Positions 12,827 through 26,601 of a DNA stretch of 64,000 bases are shown here, piece after piece. The DNA is from Lacunisphaera sp. (lineage in GTDB: Bacteria; Verrucomicrobiota; Verrucomicrobiia; Opitutales; Opitutaceae). The notes under the pieces were generated by a model, which ran no database searches, was not told the origin of the DNA, and saw only the letters and a list, made by a program, of their open reading frames with translations. The stretch spans positions 62,001 to 126,000 of the forward strand of contig JAQSCO010000014.1 of assembly GCA_029945445.1 (NCBI GenBank). The letters run 5' to 3'. Numbering within the stretch: the first letter of the stretch is position 1; each line of letters starts with the position of its first letter. Made by a program: the position numbers and the translations under genes.

Positions 12827-12896
12827 TTAGTATACTATTAGTTGACAACGAGTGGAGCCGTGCCGCCGGCGACTATGTCAACTAATAGTATACTAA
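12827..12896. repeat. Long AT-rich inverted repeat with variable core, copy 1
   Basis: Perfect 21-bp arms (12827-12847 and 12876-12896; left arm begins TTAGTATACTATTAGTTGAC) flank a 28-bp GC-rich core. The outer TTAGTATACTA part is itself nearly palindromic. A second copy with 20 identical arm bases but a different core is at 26535-26601. The AT-rich arms stand out from the GC-rich surroundings. It lies between the CoA-transferase and the M13 peptidase and has no T-tract. Confidence 0.8.
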
Positions 12897-21418: not shown

Positions 21419-22711
21419 CTACTGCCTGTAGATCTTGCCGGCCTTCATGACGAAGCTGACCTTCGTCATCAGGCTGATGTCGGCGAGCGGGTCGCCGGGC
21501 ACGGCGACGAGGTCGGCGAACTTGCCGGGCTCGACGGTGCCGAGTTCCTTCTCCATCTCGAGCAACTGCGCGGCGTTGAGCGTGGCGGCCTGGATGGCTT
21601 TCATCGGCGGCATGCCGGCCTCGACCATGTAGATGAATTCCTTGGCGTTGTCGCCGTGCGGGGCGACGCCTTGGTCGGTGCCGAAGGCGATCTTCACGCC
21701 GGCAGTATAGGCGCGGGCGAAGGTGGCCTGGATGAGCGGTCCGATGGCGGCGGCCTTGGGGCGCACAATGGTCGGGAAATAGCCGTCGAGCTTGGACTTC
21801 TCGGCGACGAAGCGGCCGGCACTGATGGTGGCGACATACCACGTGCCCTTCGCCTTCATGAGCGCAATGGTCTCGTCGGACATGAACGTGCCGTGCTCGA
21901 TCGACCACACGCCGGCGCGGATGGCGCGCTGCATGCCCTCGTCGCCGTGGGCATGGGAGGCGACCCGGAGGCCGTAGTCCTTGGCCGTCGACACCACGGC
22001 GGCGAGTTCCTCCTCGGTGTAGAGCGGGGCCTGGCCGCTCTTGGCGAGGCTCAACACGCCGCCGGTGGACGAGACCTTGATGAAGTCGGCGCCGTCCTTG
22101 TAGCGCTGGCGCACAATGGCGCGCAGCTGGTCGGGACCGTTGCCGACCGCGGTGTTGGTGGGGGCGAGCACTTCCTGGAGCTGCGTGTTGAGGCCGTTGG
22201 TGCCGTCGCCGACGTGGCTGCCAGTGGTGCCGACGCTGCCGGCGGCGTAGATGCGCGGGCCGTCGACCCAGCCCTTGGCGATGGCGTCGCGCAGCGCGAG
22301 GTTGAGTTTGTCGCTGGCGCCGCAGTCGCGGACCGTGGTGAAGCCGGCCAGAAGGGTGCGCTTGGCGTAGACGGTGGAGCGCAGCGCGACATCCGCGGGA
22401 TTCAGGTAAAAGCGCTCGGCATAACCGGCCTGACCGGACTGCTCGCTGGTGAGATGGACGTGCATGTCCATCAGGCCGGGCATCACGGTGGCAGCCTTGA
22501 GGTCGATGACGGTGTCGCCCGCAACGGACACGGTGTAGCCGTCGGCGAGGCCGGTGATGCGATCGCCGTCGACGGTGATGGTCACGGCCTTGCGCAGGGT
22601 ATCGGCGCGGCCGTCGATCAGCGAGCCGGCGTAAACGAGGGTCTTGGCGTGGGCGAGGGTGGCCGCGAGCAGGACGGCCCCCGCGAGGACGGGGCGGTAG
22701 GGGATAAGCAT
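21419..22711 (-). CDS. Exported amidohydrolase (imidazolonepropionase-like)
   Basis: 430-aa metal-dependent amidohydrolase with a signal peptide (to about residue 22, LAHA). Metal-site motifs in order are [18 protein letters not shown] with the bridging Lys, ASHAHG, SIEHGTF and GTDQGV. The closest recognisable group is the secreted imidazolonepropionase-like/Xaa-Pro (prolidase-type) amidohydrolases, so a dipeptide or cyclic amide is a likely substrate. It converges on the 2-hydroxyacid dehydrogenase gene. Confidence 0.9.
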
Positions 22712-22796
22712 AACTTTTTCTGGCGGTGCGGCCGGCCTCCGGCAATAGTCAACTCACCGTATCGGCAACCCCGGGACCTCCTGGATTGTATTTACC

Positions 22797-22822
22797 GGGA
22801 ATAAGCCCAATCCCCGCGACTC
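22797..22822 (+). promoter_or_regulatory. Candidate ECF-sigma promoter of the bufferin precursor gene
   Basis: GGGAATAA at 22797-22804 is followed after exactly 14 bp by ACTC (22819-22822). The same two blocks with the same 14-bp spacing recur upstream of the DoxX gene (25221-25246). The arrangement resembles an ECF sigma -35/-10 pair. It would give a leader of about 100 nt before the precursor gene. Confidence 0.5.
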
Positions 22823-22931
22823 TTATCCGCCAACTACCCGAGGCTATTGCTTCCCACACTTTCAATCCGCATGGCCGGCAAGGTGCCGCGCCGTGTCGGA
22901 TGAAAACCAACCCACAAAATCCGCGTATCAC

Positions 22932-23228
22932 ATGAATAAATCCACCCGTCTCCTCATCACGGCCGCCGCCATGGCCGGCCTGTATACCGGCGTCCTCGCC
23001 ACGAAATCCTTCGCCGCCGACACCGCCGGCAAGGAAGACACCGCCAAGAAGGATGCCGCCAAGCACGACTGCAAGGGCAAGAACTCCTGCAAGGGCCAGG
23101 GCGGCTGCGGCGCCAGCGACAATGGCTGCAAGGGCAAGAACTCCTGCAAGGGCAAGGGCGGCTGCTCGTCCGCGATGGGCGAAAAGCACGACGCCGACGC
23201 CAAGAAGAAGGAAGACGCCAAGAAATAA
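22932..23228 (+). CDS. bufA: Bufferin-type (BufA2-like) Cys-rich RiPP precursor
   Basis: 98-aa precursor: signal peptide (to about residue 29, KSFAAD), a Lys/Asp-rich spacer and a duplicated Cys module. C47-KGKNS-C53-KGQGG-C59 is followed after six residues by C66-KGKNS-C72-KGKGG-C78, then a charged tail. CKGxNxCKGxGGC motifs mark periplasmic bufferin-type metallophores, in which a DUF692 enzyme converts Cys to thiooxazole-type heterocycles that bind copper. The ATG beginning MNKSTRLL gives the proper signal peptide. It is followed by tandem terminators and then the DUF692, DUF2063 and DoxX genes. The copper ligand role is known for the family and inferred here. Confidence 0.85.
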   Translation: MNKSTRLLITAAAMAGLYTGVLATKSFAADTAGKEDTAKKDAAKHDCKGKNSCKGQGGCGASDNGCKGKNSCKGKGGCSSAMGEKHDADAKKKEDAKK

Positions 23229-23241
23229 TTTAGCGCCACTC

Positions 23242-23280
23242 CCGGCCGGACTCCCACGCGGGCCCGGCCGGTTTTGCTTT
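23242..23280 (+). terminator. First terminator after the bufferin precursor gene
   Basis: CCGGCCGG at 23242-23249 pairs with CCGGCCGG at 23264-23271 across a 14-base loop and is followed by TTTTGCTTT. It probably limits read-through into the modification genes. Confidence 0.6.
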
Positions 23281-23282
23281 CC

Positions 23283-23310
23283 GAGGCCGGCGCCACACCC
23301 GGCCTCTTTT
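23283..23310 (+). terminator. Second terminator after the bufferin precursor gene
   Basis: The stem GAGGCCGG (23283-23290) / CCGGCCTC (23299-23306) has an 8-base loop and a TTTT tail. Together with the preceding hairpin it forms a tandem terminator, which would make the precursor more abundant than its enzymes. Confidence 0.75.
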
Positions 23311-23377
23311 ATTACCGGTTTTGCCCTCCGCGCCGCCAGCCGCAGGCTGGGGCGTCCGTTTTGCTCCGCCTCCCTTC

Positions 23378-24232
23378 ATGCCCGCCAATCCCTTCAACGG
23401 CCAGACCGACTACGGCATCGGCATCGGCCTGCGTGTCCCGCACTACGCGCACATCCTCGAGCAGAAGCCGGTCGTGGACTGGTTCGAGATCATCTCGGAA
23501 AATTTCATGGTCGACGGCGGCCGGCCGCTCGAGGTGCTCGACGACATTCTGGAGCAATACCGCGTCGTGCAGCACGGCGTCTCGATGTATTTCGGCTCGG
23601 CCGACAAGCCTGACCGCACCCACCTGAAAAAACTCAAGGCGCTCGTCAAGCGCACCAAGACCCCGTGGCTCTCCGACCACCTCTGCTGGGGCAGCGTCGA
23701 CGGCACCTACACGCACGACCTGCTGCCGATGCCCTACACCTTCGCGTCGGCGAAGCACACCGCGGAGAAAATCAAGATGGTCCGCGATTATCTCGAGGTG
23801 CCCATTTGCGTCGAGAACGTCAGCAGCTATGCCGAGTTTCACGTCTCCGAGATGACCGAGTGGGAATTCCTCACCGAGGTCGTCGAGCGGGCCGACTGCG
23901 GAATCCTCCTCGACGTGAACAATATTTACGTCTCCGCGCAGAACCACGGCTTCAATCCCTACGCCTACGTCAACGGCGTGCCGCATCACCGCGTGGGCCA
24001 GATGCACGTCGCCGGCCACACCAAGTTCGAGAAATACATCCTCGATACGCACGATCACCCCGTGCTCGACCCGGTGTGGAAGCTCTACGCCCACGCCACC
24101 AAGCTCTGCGGCGTGACCGCCACGCTCCTCGAGTGGGACGACAAGATCCCGTCGTTTCAGGAAGTCCACGACGAGGCCCTCAAGGCCAATGAATTCATCG
24201 ACGGCGCGAAGCAGGCGCCGCGCAAAAAATGA
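23378..24232 (+). CDS. bufB: DUF692 RiPP-modifying enzyme (MbnB/BufB/HvfB-like)
   Basis: 284-aa TIM-barrel protein of the DUF692 (MbnB/TglH-like) family, which uses a multinuclear iron centre to oxidise Cys residues of a precursor peptide. Candidate ligands in the family order are H66, H101, E146 (in VENVSSY), D179/N182 (LLDVNN), H210, the DTHDH cluster at 223-227 and E252. The start at MPANPFNG drops a non-conserved 19-residue extension. It overlaps the DUF2063 gene by 4 bp (ATGA), as expected for the two-protein modifying complex. The likely substrate is the Cys-rich precursor upstream. Confidence 0.9.
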   Translation: MPANPFNGQTDYGIGIGLRVPHYAHILEQKPVVDWFEIISENFMVDGGRPLEVLDDILEQYRVVQHGVSMYFGSADKPDRTHLKKLKALVKRTKTPWLSDHLCWGSVDGTYTHDLLPMPYTFASAKHTAEKIKMVRDYLEVPICVENVSSYAEFHVSEMTEWEFLTEVVERADCGILLDVNNIYVSAQNHGFNPYAYVNGVPHHRVGQMHVAGHTKFEKYILDTHDHPVLDPVWKLYAHATKLCGVTATLLEWDDKIPSFQEVHDEALKANEFIDGAKQAPRKK

Positions 24233-25158
24233 GCCGCATCCTCGCCACCGGCCTCAAGGCCCCGCCGCCGCACGCGCCGCGCCGACTCGCGACGACTGCG
24301 GATGTCCTGAAACTGCAGCGGCTGATGACGCACCTGCTCGTGCGCCCGCTGACCAAGCAGGACGGCCTGCAACCGACCTGGATCGACGGCCGCCCGACGG
24401 CCGCGGTCGCCGCCGAGTTCATCAAGTCCAATGACCGGCTCACGTCCTTCGAGCGGCTCCAGCTCTACAACCGGATGTATTGGTTCCGGCTGCTCGACAT
24501 CATGCACGATGACAATCCCGGGCTGCGGGCCCTGCTCGGGGAGAAAAAGTTCACCCGGTTAACCGAGGCCTATCTCGCGAAATATCCCTCGCGGTCCTTC
24601 ACGCTGCGCAACCTCGGCTCGCGGCTCGCGCAGTTCATCCGGGAACAGCCGCGCCTCACGGCGCCACACACCGCGCTTGCGCACGCGGTCACGCGTTTCG
24701 AGTGGGCGCAGACCGTGGCCTTCGACGAGGGCGCGCATCCCGGGCTCACGGCCGCTGATTTGAAGCGCACGCCGCCGGCGCGCCTGAAGATCGCTCTACA
24801 GCCCTATCTCTCACTGCTCGCGCTGGACTGGCCGGTGGACGACTACGTCATCGCGGTTAAGCAGCGCGACGCGCTCCGCGGTGCGGCGAGCAATGCCGTC
24901 GATTCCGCCCGCGTCGTGCCACGCAGCCGCCAGGTCGCGCGTCCGCGGCGCGGCCGGATTTACCTCGGCGTGCACCGCTACCACCACCGGCTTTTCTACA
25001 AGCGGCTCGAGCGTCCGGCGTTTCTTATTCTCACCGCGCTCGCCGCCGGCCGGCCGCTGGCGTCGGCCGTCACCGCCGGCGGCCGCGGCGTGAAGCCCGC
25101 ACAGGTCAGCGGGTGGTTCGCCACGTGGATGGAACTCGGCTGGCTGTGCCGGCGGTGA
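24229..25158 (+). CDS. bufC: DUF2063 RiPP-modification partner (BufC/HvfC-like)
   Basis: 309-aa protein. The N-terminal part (about residues 25-130: LQRLMTHLL, then FERLQLYNRMYWFRLLDIMHDDNPGLRALLG) is the DUF2063 domain, originally labelled DNA-binding but in these loci the partner that presents the precursor to the DUF692 enzyme. The C-terminal part is a helical domain ending in a winged-helix-like stretch. Translational coupling to the DUF692 gene supports a complex. Confidence 0.88.
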   Translation: MSRILATGLKAPPPHAPRRLATTADVLKLQRLMTHLLVRPLTKQDGLQPTWIDGRPTAAVAAEFIKSNDRLTSFERLQLYNRMYWFRLLDIMHDDNPGLRALLGEKKFTRLTEAYLAKYPSRSFTLRNLGSRLAQFIREQPRLTAPHTALAHAVTRFEWAQTVAFDEGAHPGLTAADLKRTPPARLKIALQPYLSLLALDWPVDDYVIAVKQRDALRGAASNAVDSARVVPRSRQVARPRRGRIYLGVHRYHHRLFYKRLERPAFLILTALAAGRPLASAVTAGGRGVKPAQVSGWFATWMELGWLCRR

Positions 25159-25220
25159 GGCCTGCGGGAGGACCCAGCTCCCGCTGGGCCGCGGCCTATC
25201 GGGAGATAGGTCCACCATGC

Positions 25221-25246
25221 GGGAATAATTTCCGCGCCCGCAACTC
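25221..25246 (+). promoter_or_regulatory. Candidate ECF-sigma promoter of the DoxX gene
   Basis: GGGAATAA (25221-25228) then, after 14 bp, ACTC (25243-25246), identical in both blocks and spacing to the site upstream of the bufferin precursor. The start codon at 25255 is so close that the transcript would be nearly leaderless. Confidence 0.5.
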
Positions 25247-25254
25247 CCACCGCC

Positions 25255-25716
25255 ATGCAACTCCGCCCTTTGCTCGCCAAGTTCGATGCCCTAGCGTCCT
25301 GCCTCCAGTCGCCGCTGCTGCTCGTTATCCGCCTCTACTGGGGCTGGTCCTTCGCGCAGACCGGCTGGGGCAAGCTCATGAACCTGGAGAGAACCACGGC
25401 GTTTTTCACCGAACTGGGCCTGCCGATGCCGAAGCTCAACGCCATCGCCGCGGGCTCGACTGAATGCTTCGGCGGCCTGCTGCTCGCCGTCGGCCTCTTT
25501 GCGCGTCCGGCCTCGGTGCCGCTCATCTTTACGATGATCGTCGCCTACGCCACCGCCGACAAGGAGGCGGCGCAGGCGATCTTCAGCGACCCGGACAAAT
25601 TCCTCGGCGCCGCGCCGTTCCTGTTCCTGCTGGCTTCGCTGGTCGTGCTGGCGTTCGGCCCGGGCAAGCTCTCGCTCGACGCGCTGTTGTTCAGGAAGCC
25701 GGCGGCTGGTGCGTGA
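25255..25716 (+). CDS. bufD: DoxX family membrane protein (BufD/HvfD-like)
   Basis: 153-aa DoxX/DoxD family protein with four hydrophobic helices and the family features RLYWGWSFAQTGWGKLMNL and GSTECFGGLLLAVGLFARPAS. DoxX proteins are the usual fourth gene of bufferin/Hvf operons, where they are thought to support redox or maturation steps in the membrane. It is 96 bp after the DUF2063 gene and has its own copy of the ECF-like promoter, suggesting co-regulation rather than simple read-through. Confidence 0.85.
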   Translation: MQLRPLLAKFDALASCLQSPLLLVIRLYWGWSFAQTGWGKLMNLERTTAFFTELGLPMPKLNAIAAGSTECFGGLLLAVGLFARPASVPLIFTMIVAYATADKEAAQAIFSDPDKFLGAAPFLFLLASLVVLAFGPGKLSLDALLFRKPAAGA

Positions 25717-25728
25717 CCGGCGCGCCGC

Positions 25729-26424
25729 TCAAGCCTTCACGACCTGGGTGCCGGCGATGAGGTCGTGAATGCAACGCTTGTCGTCGCGGAAGATGAAGCA
25801 GAGGTCGACCAAGGTGTAGATACCGCCGATCATCGGGATGGCGCCAATGATCCCGTTGACGAACGCGCGGAGCAGCCAGACTTTCACGAACCCTGGGTTG
25901 GATTCGTCGGGGTAGGTCACGATCTTGATGCCGAGAAATTTTTTCCCGAGGGTCTGGCCCCGGGTGACGAGCAGGTAGATCTGGATGATCACCAGGGCGA
26001 GGATACTGACCCCGAGCACCACGAGGCCGGCGACCATCAGTGCCGGATTGGGGCTGCGGGTTCCCTTGGAGAGCACGCCGGCGGCAAGCATCATGCCACC
26101 TCCGGGCAGGGCGAGGGCGCAGCCGATCAGGGCGTCGAGTATCACCGCCCCCAGCCGCTCCCAGCGGCCGGCGAGTTCGCCCCCGGTCGCGGCGCCCACC
26201 GCATCCGCGGTGCTGCCCGGAGCCAGCGTGGGGGCGGCTGCAGGTGACGGCATCGTTTCGCCGCCGGCGAATTCCGCGAATTCCCCCAAGGGTTTCCATT
26301 CTGTCTCGCCGTCGCGGCGGGCCTTGGTCTGCCGGTTGGCGCGCCCGCCGGTGATCCACGCCGCAATCTTGTCGGCCGCCACCGGCCCGTATTCCTTTCC
26401 GTCCGCGCCCAGGATGGTGAACAT
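25729..26424 (-). CDS. GYF_2-RDD membrane protein
   Basis: 231-aa protein. An N-terminal GYF_2-type domain (MFTILGADGKEYGPVAADKIAAWITGG, about residues 1-50) is followed by an Ala/Pro linker and a C-terminal RDD domain with three hydrophobic helices, including VILDALIGCALALP, YLLVTRGQTLGKKFLGIKIV and a final DLCFIFRDDKRCIHDLIAGTQVV. GYF_2 modules are thought to bind peptides and RDD domains are membrane modules of unclear function. The start at MFTILG is set by the GYF domain; the open frame further upstream is non-conserved and runs to an inverted repeat. Confidence 0.82.
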   Translation of the reverse strand: MFTILGADGKEYGPVAADKIAAWITGGRANRQTKARRDGETEWKPLGEFAEFAGGETMPSPAAAPTLAPGSTADAVGAATGGELAGRWERLGAVILDALIGCALALPGGGMMLAAGVLSKGTRSPNPALMVAGLVVLGVSILALVIIQIYLLVTRGQTLGKKFLGIKIVTYPDESNPGFVKVWLLRAFVNGIIGAIPMIGGIYTLVDLCFIFRDDKRCIHDLIAGTQVVKA

Positions 26425-26534
26425 AGTGGCGGCAGGCTGCCCGCCCGGCGGCGCGAGGTCAACGCCGCACTCGCCCCAACACCCGGGCCGTGGCCCCAGT
26501 CCACCCGATCCAGCTCCCTCCCACTCCCGAGCCA

Positions 26535-26601
26535 TAGTATACTATTAGTTGACAATGAAAACTGGGGGCCGCCCGTGGGTATGTCAACTAATAGTATACT
26601 A
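26535..26601. repeat. Long AT-rich inverted repeat with variable core, copy 2
   Basis: Arms of 20 bp (26535-26554 and 26582-26601) are identical to those at 12827-12896 and flank an unrelated 27-bp GC-rich core. Both copies share short conserved edges of the core (an A after the left arm and TA before the right arm). It lies between the divergent 5' end of the GYF-RDD gene and the 3' end of rsgA. Confidence 0.8.

Follow-up and report, generated by a model that had tools for sequence, protein, structure and literature searches.

Bufferin clusters share a core of four genes, encoding a precursor peptide, an MNIO (DUF692) enzyme, a DUF2063 protein and a DoxX protein (PMC12452194; papers are cited by PMC number, each for excerpts of its text). 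In 90% of Buf2-type precursors there are six conserved Cys; the rest have twelve, as duplicated six-Cys domains (PMC12452194). Six-Cys precursors beside DUF692 and DUF2063 genes had been noted earlier in soil Gammaproteobacteria (PMC8692599). Here we describe a locus of this kind in a 64,000-nucleotide stretch of contig JAQSCO010000014.1 from Lacunisphaera sp. (Verrucomicrobiota, Opitutaceae), referred to below as the window. The locus probably encodes a Buf2-type bufferin, that is, a captophorin of the Cys-Lys group, in a symmetrized variant. The peptide family is already known from other bacteria; what sets this form apart is the placement of the sixth Cys, which makes the two halves of the Cys core equal.

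The gene set and its conservation

The locus consists of a precursor gene followed on the same strand by genes for an MNIO of the BufB type, a DUF2063 partner protein and a DoxX family membrane protein (Table 1). Pfam matches of the last three were all above gathering score (PF05114, 354.5 bits; PF09836, 50.5 bits; PF07681, 80.1 bits), and the scan of the precursor gave no match up to an E value of 1. The MNIO passed the BufB model NF050167 (344.1 bits, cut-off 310) and scored lower on the HvfB model (246.5 bits, below the cut-off of 360), which makes it Buf2-like rather than Hvf-like. A sequence-only reading of the window had called the locus "bufferin/Hvf-type," with a 98-residue, six-Cys precursor ahead of DUF692, DUF2063 and DoxX genes and an ATGA overlap between the first two of these. 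The open reading frames (ORFs), the Pfam matches and the BufB score bear out the gene set, the overlap lies at 24229–24232, and of the two family names only bufferin stands. That reading began the locus at 22797, upstream of the precursor start; an alternative, longer precursor frame opens with a GTG at 22893.

We compared the locus with related ones in a sample of 45 regions, 80 named loci and the window, minus three without an MNIO hit (L104, L105 and L106; L numbers are our locus handles), giving 123 loci. The window MNIO gave more than 559 matches, of which the named loci are the best 80, so the sample is uneven. In the 102 distinct loci with room downstream, one of which is the window, a DUF2063 gene comes after the MNIO in 101 and DoxX in 79, and for this reason the grouping is not due to chance. 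In 121 of the 123 loci a Cys-repeat precursor precedes the MNIO; the exceptions, L077 and L154, yielded only unlike frames. The genome that holds the window (4.17 Mb, 66 contigs) has a single MNIO at E 0.001. A second BufA2 match in it, at E 0.4, falls in a frame of other composition (L032), and we took this candidate second precursor to be noise.

Two equal Cys modules

The precursor carries CX5CX5C twice around the spacer GASDNG, six Cys in total, and the two modules are identical at 38 of 39 nucleotides, so that they are as nearly alike as had been claimed. Residues 47–78 hold four CKG motifs, at Cys 1, 2, 4 and 5; Cys 3 stands in CGA and Cys 6 in CSS. The window precursor has no EGKCG repeats. 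The sequence-only reading had further described a "doubled Cys module." As a doubling of the family's Cys number this description fails, since six is the usual Buf2 number and the precursor is thus no doubling in the published twelve-Cys sense.

Buf2 precursors on Pseudomonadota plasmids showed the spacing 5-5-6-5-12 in 14 of 14 readable cases from 15 loci (L196 was unreadable); the 14 include one protein entered twice and two further near-identical entries, and 11 of the 15 loci came from searches with an asymmetric precursor, which biases the count toward the asymmetric form. The other four loci, found with the window MNIO as query, were also asymmetric. L191, a plasmid locus fetched with the window MNIO, has a DUF2282 (Buf1) precursor and is outside this count. 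Cys 1–5 of the window are in register with four of the Pseudomonadota precursors; these and three others scored 83–104 bits on the BufA2 model NF050166, all passing. A tblastn search of plasmids with the window precursor returned nothing even at E 0.01, for which the BLAST low-complexity filter may be the cause. One of the plasmid Buf2 loci, L188 from Pseudomonas mandelii, lies between genes for a heavy-metal P-type ATPase and a MerR regulator on one side and a TolC-family gene on the other.

Codon identity between the modules was compared within and between loci. In 87 loci, module positions with the same residue had identical codons at a frequency of 0.722, where local codon usage would give 0.604. 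This within-locus value exceeded that for module 1 and module 2 taken from different loci (0.675; 0 of 500 shuffles as high), as it did in 32 Opitutaceae-like loci (0.827 versus 0.795; 5 of 500 shuffles). Module 2 sequences from different loci were as alike as the modules within one locus (0.721, or 0.830 in the Opitutaceae-like set). Codon-usage differences between genomes, together with strong bias in a short gene, could produce the small within-locus excess. We make no claim that the module was recently duplicated at the DNA level, and some homogenization may have occurred.

Distribution of the symmetric core

A symmetric 5-5-x-5-5 core was found in 86 of 109 distinct precursors, window included (x = 6 in 85 and 8 in one). 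None of the 109 had the 12-residue Cys spacing, and 23 had neither form. The 86 comprise Verrucomicrobiota (35 named loci, 29 from the window's own family or genus, and the window itself), Acidobacteriota (20) and Planctomycetota (1), and five of five further same-class loci examined, out of six matches, were symmetric as well. Lys-Gly follows Cys 1 in 75, Cys 2 in 82, Cys 4 in 69 and Cys 5 in 82 of the 86 symmetric precursors; at least 74 have Lys after Cys 3 (KS, KT, KA or KG), and Cys 6 is most often followed by Ala-Thr, Ser-Thr or Asn-Thr (56 of 86 together).

The BufA2 profile matched in 32 of 150 genomes of the family and 16 of 387 of the phylum, and its cut-off was exceeded in none of either set. 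PF05114 was present in 44 of the 150 family genomes, above cut-off in 43. The one Acidobacteriota precursor scored on NF050166 reached 36.8 bits. The lineage had been called little studied, which is compatible with our literature search: no paper text named both "Verrucomicrobi" and "MNIO," although figures and supplements of surveys, which lay outside the search, may list the phylum. A literature search with the letters of the precursor motif led only to work on scorpion venom peptides and antibacterial peptides, which has no bearing on the locus.

The maturase and its partner

For the MNIO, an AlphaFold model (46 sequences; mean predicted local distance difference test (pLDDT) score 79.9) had as its best fold matches PDB 3bww (E 8.7e-21) and entries for TglH and MbnB. 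In phmmer alignments the window motifs HGVS, SDH, VEN, LDVNN, HVAGH, DTH and LLE fell on matching stretches of 3bww, TglH (8hci) and MbnB (7dz9). From the ligand motifs we picked nine residues (H66, H101, E146, D179, N182, H210, D223, H225 and E252). They align with His, Glu and Asp positions of these three proteins and are invariant in 122 of 122 MNIOs; a lack of such metal-binding residues had been named in advance as grounds for rejecting the bufferin reading. Third-site residues N175, D242 and H244 are essential in HvfB (PMC13419390) and, matched by motif, would correspond to N182, D223 and H225 of the window enzyme.

MNIOs of the Cys-Lys type have Asp where FonB has Phe250, beside the base Asp249 (PMC13097082). 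The window enzyme has Asp254-Asp255, which aligns with Asp-Phe of 3bww; through this alignment with 3bww, the pair is putatively equivalent to FonB 249 and 250. Asp254 occurs in 122 of 122 related MNIOs and Asp255 in 114 of 122. The nearest named MNIOs, at 90–92% identity, are from the Opitutaceae bacteria L107 and L108. A divergent MNIO (50% identity) occurs at L077 behind a 242-residue frame with NSCANLGGC and a Pro-Lys-rich tail; neither the DUF2063 nor the DoxX queries matched at that locus, and the frame is possibly another type of MNIO substrate.

The fold of the DUF2063 protein, modeled with AlphaFold (62 sequences, mean pLDDT 93.3), matched two entries at E ≤0.001, in both cases chain A of a TglHI structure: 8hci (E 8.2e-06) and 8hi7. 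We take chain A to be the partner TglI, since TglH is chain B or D in these entries. The entry 3dee was not among the 50 listed fold matches.

An invariant motif in the predicted signal peptide

By eye, the N terminus of the precursor has a basic n-region, a hydrophobic core and a cleavage-like end. Within it lies GLYTG, an instance of G[LIMFV]xxG (hereafter GLxxG). All 102 distinct related leaders (from 113 of the 123 loci) had this motif within the first 40 residues, compared with 7 of 87 signal-like ORF starts from the same loci, used as controls. The hydrophobic segment was located without using the motif, the 10 loci without a signal-like segment were left out, and the control starts are mechanical frames, not verified genes. 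GLxxG was absent, by reading, from all 14 readable Pseudomonadota Buf2 leaders. Because the precursors are homologous, the invariance shows constraint, not function. It fits the suggestion, made with preliminary Buf1 results, that the signal peptide is part of the recognition sequence (PMC12452194).

Repeat arrays and operon variants in relatives

In some Opitutaceae, CKGKDG-like Cys repeats are added before or after the core (L064, L066, L074, L080, L085, L090, L093, L098, L102 and others). Ten of the 109 distinct-MNIO rows (L068, L081, L092, L094, L095, L097, L103, L115, L117 and L125) have CX5C-repeat precursors without any core, with six to eleven Cys in CKGKDG-like repeats and, in some, spacers; of the two scored on NF050166, L092 reached 18.8 bits and L081 gave no match. 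A tree of the 109 MNIO rows, made by a quick method, placed the window among six-Cys forms, nearest to L091, L082 and L107. The "array" group numbers 18 rows, short and irregular forms among them, and requires 9 changes on this tree, at least 3 of them forced by well-supported branches. One supported clade (Shimodaira–Hasegawa-like approximate likelihood ratio test (SH-aLRT) value 98) unites 8 arrays with 5 core-plus-repeat forms. Shortened precursors of 3–5 Cys were also seen beside an MNIO, in Acidobacteriota (L168, L178, L181 and L182) and in Chthoniobacter (L162).

We surveyed what follows DoxX in the 79 distinct loci that have this gene and extend 800 nucleotides or more past it. An extracytoplasmic function (ECF) sigma factor gene came directly after DoxX in 17 (L064, L066, L075, L101, L133, L147, L155 and others) and a gene for an exported DUF255/DsbH thioredoxin-like protein in 12 (L082, L074, L108, L103, L131 and others); the window has neither there. 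Of the representatives scanned in Pfam, three sigma factors and two DUF255 proteins were above gathering score, and two candidate anti-sigma proteins from Verrucomicrobiota loci matched DUF3379 only below it. Since the excerpts of PMC12452194 place sigma/anti-sigma genes in Buf1 and not in Buf2 clusters, linkage to a sigma factor may characterize the Verrucomicrobiota/Acidobacteriota branch. The DUF255 protein could keep peptide thiols reduced. On a Bradyrhizobium plasmid (L195), a DUF255 gene faces a Buf2 precursor gene.

Proposed mechanism and alternative readings

By analogy with the family, we propose that the DUF2063 protein, with a putative RiPP (ribosomally synthesized and post-translationally modified peptide) recognition element, would bind the precursor, probably through the GLxxG signal peptide, and deliver it to the MNIO. 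The multi-iron MNIO would then oxidize each Cys that precedes Lys-Gly to a 5-thiooxazole with loss of 4 H, at Cys 1, 2, 4 and 5 in the window, for a predicted mass shift of −16.1 Da. We predict four thiooxazoles because an Asp-Lys contact was modeled for BufB2-BufA2 (PMC13097082), 4 H are lost per modified Cys (PMC12538549), and CKG stands at these four positions. Cys 3 and Cys 6, at the module ends, would stay free or form a disulfide. After Sec export and cleavage, the two equal modules would hold Cu(I) in the periplasm, and possibly further soft metals. DoxX would be an accessory protein.

Several observations weigh against this proposal. The precursor reached 36.9 bits on NF050166 (E 3.2e-09, profile positions 12–66 of 79), short of the cut-off of 60, and its Cys 6 is displaced, 5 residues past Cys 5 instead of the 12 in Pseudomonadota. 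Cut-offs were also missed by the DUF2063 protein on the HvfC model NF050145 (32.3 bits, cut-off 142) and by DoxX on the HvfX model NF050144 (72.6 bits, cut-off 80), so that the profile searches succeeded for BufB, PF05114 and PF09836 and fell short for BufA2, HvfC and HvfX. A terminator-like hairpin separates the precursor from the MNIO gene: the region 23226–23330 folds at −41.6 kcal/mol (z −2.54), its second hairpin (23283–23306) is followed by TTTTATT, and co-transcription of the two genes is putative. No sigma-70-like promoter was found on the plus strand of 22600–25900. Pfam scans of a few flanking proteins revealed no copper gene, most of the window being unannotated. Finally, according to the excerpts of PMC12538549, a related Microbulbifer cluster went undetected as protein, also under copper. 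A partial terminator would yield more precursor than enzyme.

The pattern of modification is the part of the proposal with the strongest competitor. That all six Cys are converted, or that conversion stops at each module's middle Cys while the others form disulfides, is a serious possibility, if somewhat short of an even chance. All six Cys are modified in the EGKCG-type MmrA (PMC12538549), in Buf1 only the central Cys are modified and the first and last form a disulfide (PMC12452194), and most symmetric precursors have Lys after Cys 3 too. In the window, however, Cys 3 and Cys 6 precede Gly and Ser, and the modeled Asp-Lys contact predicts modification at Cys-Lys sites. A role in handling another metal or stress (gold, mercury, oxidative) or in metal acquisition, in place of copper detoxification, is unlikely, even though responses to gold and oxidative stress have been reported for related operons (PMC13097082), MerC-Buf2 fusions exist (PMC12452194), and the sigma factor or thioredoxin-like gene follows DoxX in some relatives. 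Against it, Cu binding is general among the characterized products, which arise in responses to stresses, copper excess among them (PMC13097082).

The sub-threshold BufA2 score and the hairpin ahead of the MNIO gene would also suit an unmodified, metallothionein-like Cys peptide next to an MNIO that acts on something else. We regard this as very improbable, given the similar precursor upstream of the MNIO in nearly all loci of the sample and the single MNIO of the genome. The chance that the locus is silent or decaying is slighter still: the MNIO is patchily present in the family's genomes, but all frames here are intact, the ligand residues are invariant and the six-Cys core is conserved.

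Beyond the symmetrized Buf2-type bufferin itself, we offer a broader conjecture, tentatively and as one that may well prove wrong. Verrucomicrobiota and Acidobacteriota would share a separate bufferin branch whose core pairs equal CX5CX5C units. Each unit would form one complete metal site, which would match the two sites per peptide that the sequence-only reading had thought possible. In Opitutaceae, the same type of MNIO would also take open-ended CX5C repeats of the CKGK(D/E) type, added to the core or replacing it, so that Cys number and copper capacity are tuned by repeats, and the GLxxG signal peptide would be the partner's recognition leader. The natural series from two modules to long repeats would test site choice by the MNIO and the scaling of copper capacity. 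The invariant signal-peptide motif makes recognition of precursors before export directly testable, and the symmetrized form yields an exact prediction of the sites of modification. It would extend copper-buffering RiPPs, as a regularized subtype, to genomes without a BufA2 profile match over the cut-off.

Features and surroundings

Table 1. Positions of the genes and elements of the locus within the window
Feature	Position	Strand	Basis
bufA-like precursor gene, 98 amino acids	22932..23228	+	ORF, ATG start; Cys spacing 5-5-6-5-5
Predicted Sec signal peptide MNKSTRLLITAAAMAGLYTGVLATKSFA	22932..23015	+	read by eye; putative cleavage before ADT
G-L-Y-T-G motif inside signal peptide	22977..22991	+	sequence
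Cys module 1, CKGKNSCKGQGGC, residues 47-59	23070..23108	+	read directly
Cys module 2, CKGKNSCKGKGGC, residues 66-78	23127..23165	+	read directly
Two GC-rich hairpins between precursor and MNIO	23242..23306	+	pattern and fold
MNIO (DUF692/PF05114), BufB-type maturase, 284 amino acids	23378..24232	+	NF050167, PF05114, fold match 3bww
Codons 254 (Asp at the proposed base position) and 255 (Asp that marks Cys-Lys MNIOs)	24137..24142	+	alignments
DUF2063/PF09836 partner protein (PME type 1-like), 309 amino acids	24229..25158	+	PF09836, fold match 8hci_A
DoxX family membrane protein, 153 amino acids	25255..25716	+	PF07681

The locus is flanked at its 5' side by a divergent amidohydrolase gene (21419–22711, minus strand) and at its 3' side, next after DoxX, by a convergent RDD-family gene (25729–26535, minus strand). 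Inverted pairs of GTATACTATTAGTTGACA occur in the window at 12830–12893 and 26537–26599 and resemble a palindromic element of the repetitive extragenic palindromic (REP) or miniature inverted-repeat transposable element (MITE) kind. The genome has 36 exact sites of GTATACTATTAGTTGACA, 32 of them in 16 inverted pairs (18–51 nucleotides apart) and 4 single, and none of the reversed pattern used as control.

Comparison with known systems

Methanobactin MbnABC and pearlin TglAHI have the MNIO fold (MbnB, TglH) and the partner fold (TglI) in common with the window, and they differ in having precursors without a signal peptide and other products. The Hvf/oxazolin and EGKCG peptides (HvfA, fontiphorin, bulbicupramide) share the MNIO, the DUF2063 partner (with DoxX in hvf) and Cys oxidation, which is predicted for the window; they differ in their Lys-Cys 5-mer repeats and in Phe at the MNIO specificity position. 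Buf1 shares the gene set and export, again predicted here, and differs in its four Cys and its DUF2282 domain, whereas the window precursor is without any Pfam match.

The captophorins of the Cys-Lys group (PMC13097082) have an MNIO, a PME1 protein and a multi-Cys-Lys precursor, as well as Asp after the catalytic-base Asp, all in common with the window; that work concerns mainly Pseudomonadota, and in the excerpts of it a product of the window's variant is not characterized. Closest is Buf2/BufA2 of Pseudomonadota (Buf_6/12Cys, NF050166), with a signal peptide (predicted for the window), the 5-5-6-5 register of Cys 1–5, CKG motifs, and MNIO and DUF2063 genes downstream. In contrast to it, the window precursor lacks the C-terminal tail around the later Cys 6, has CKG at its first Cys where theirs is CYG, CFG, CSG or CVG, and carries GLxxG in a predicted signal peptide whose counterparts in the 14 Pseudomonadota leaders do not.

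The MNIO ligands, a PME type 1 partner and a Cys-Lys precursor, the testable features of the broad MNIO-PME1 class (captophorins and bufferins), are all present in the locus. In the narrow BufA2 sense it has the six Cys, the BufB score and Asp255, and it departs from the NF050166 cut-off and the 5-5-6-5-12 register. Because of these two departures, we file the locus as a variant branch of Buf2 and not as a standard member.

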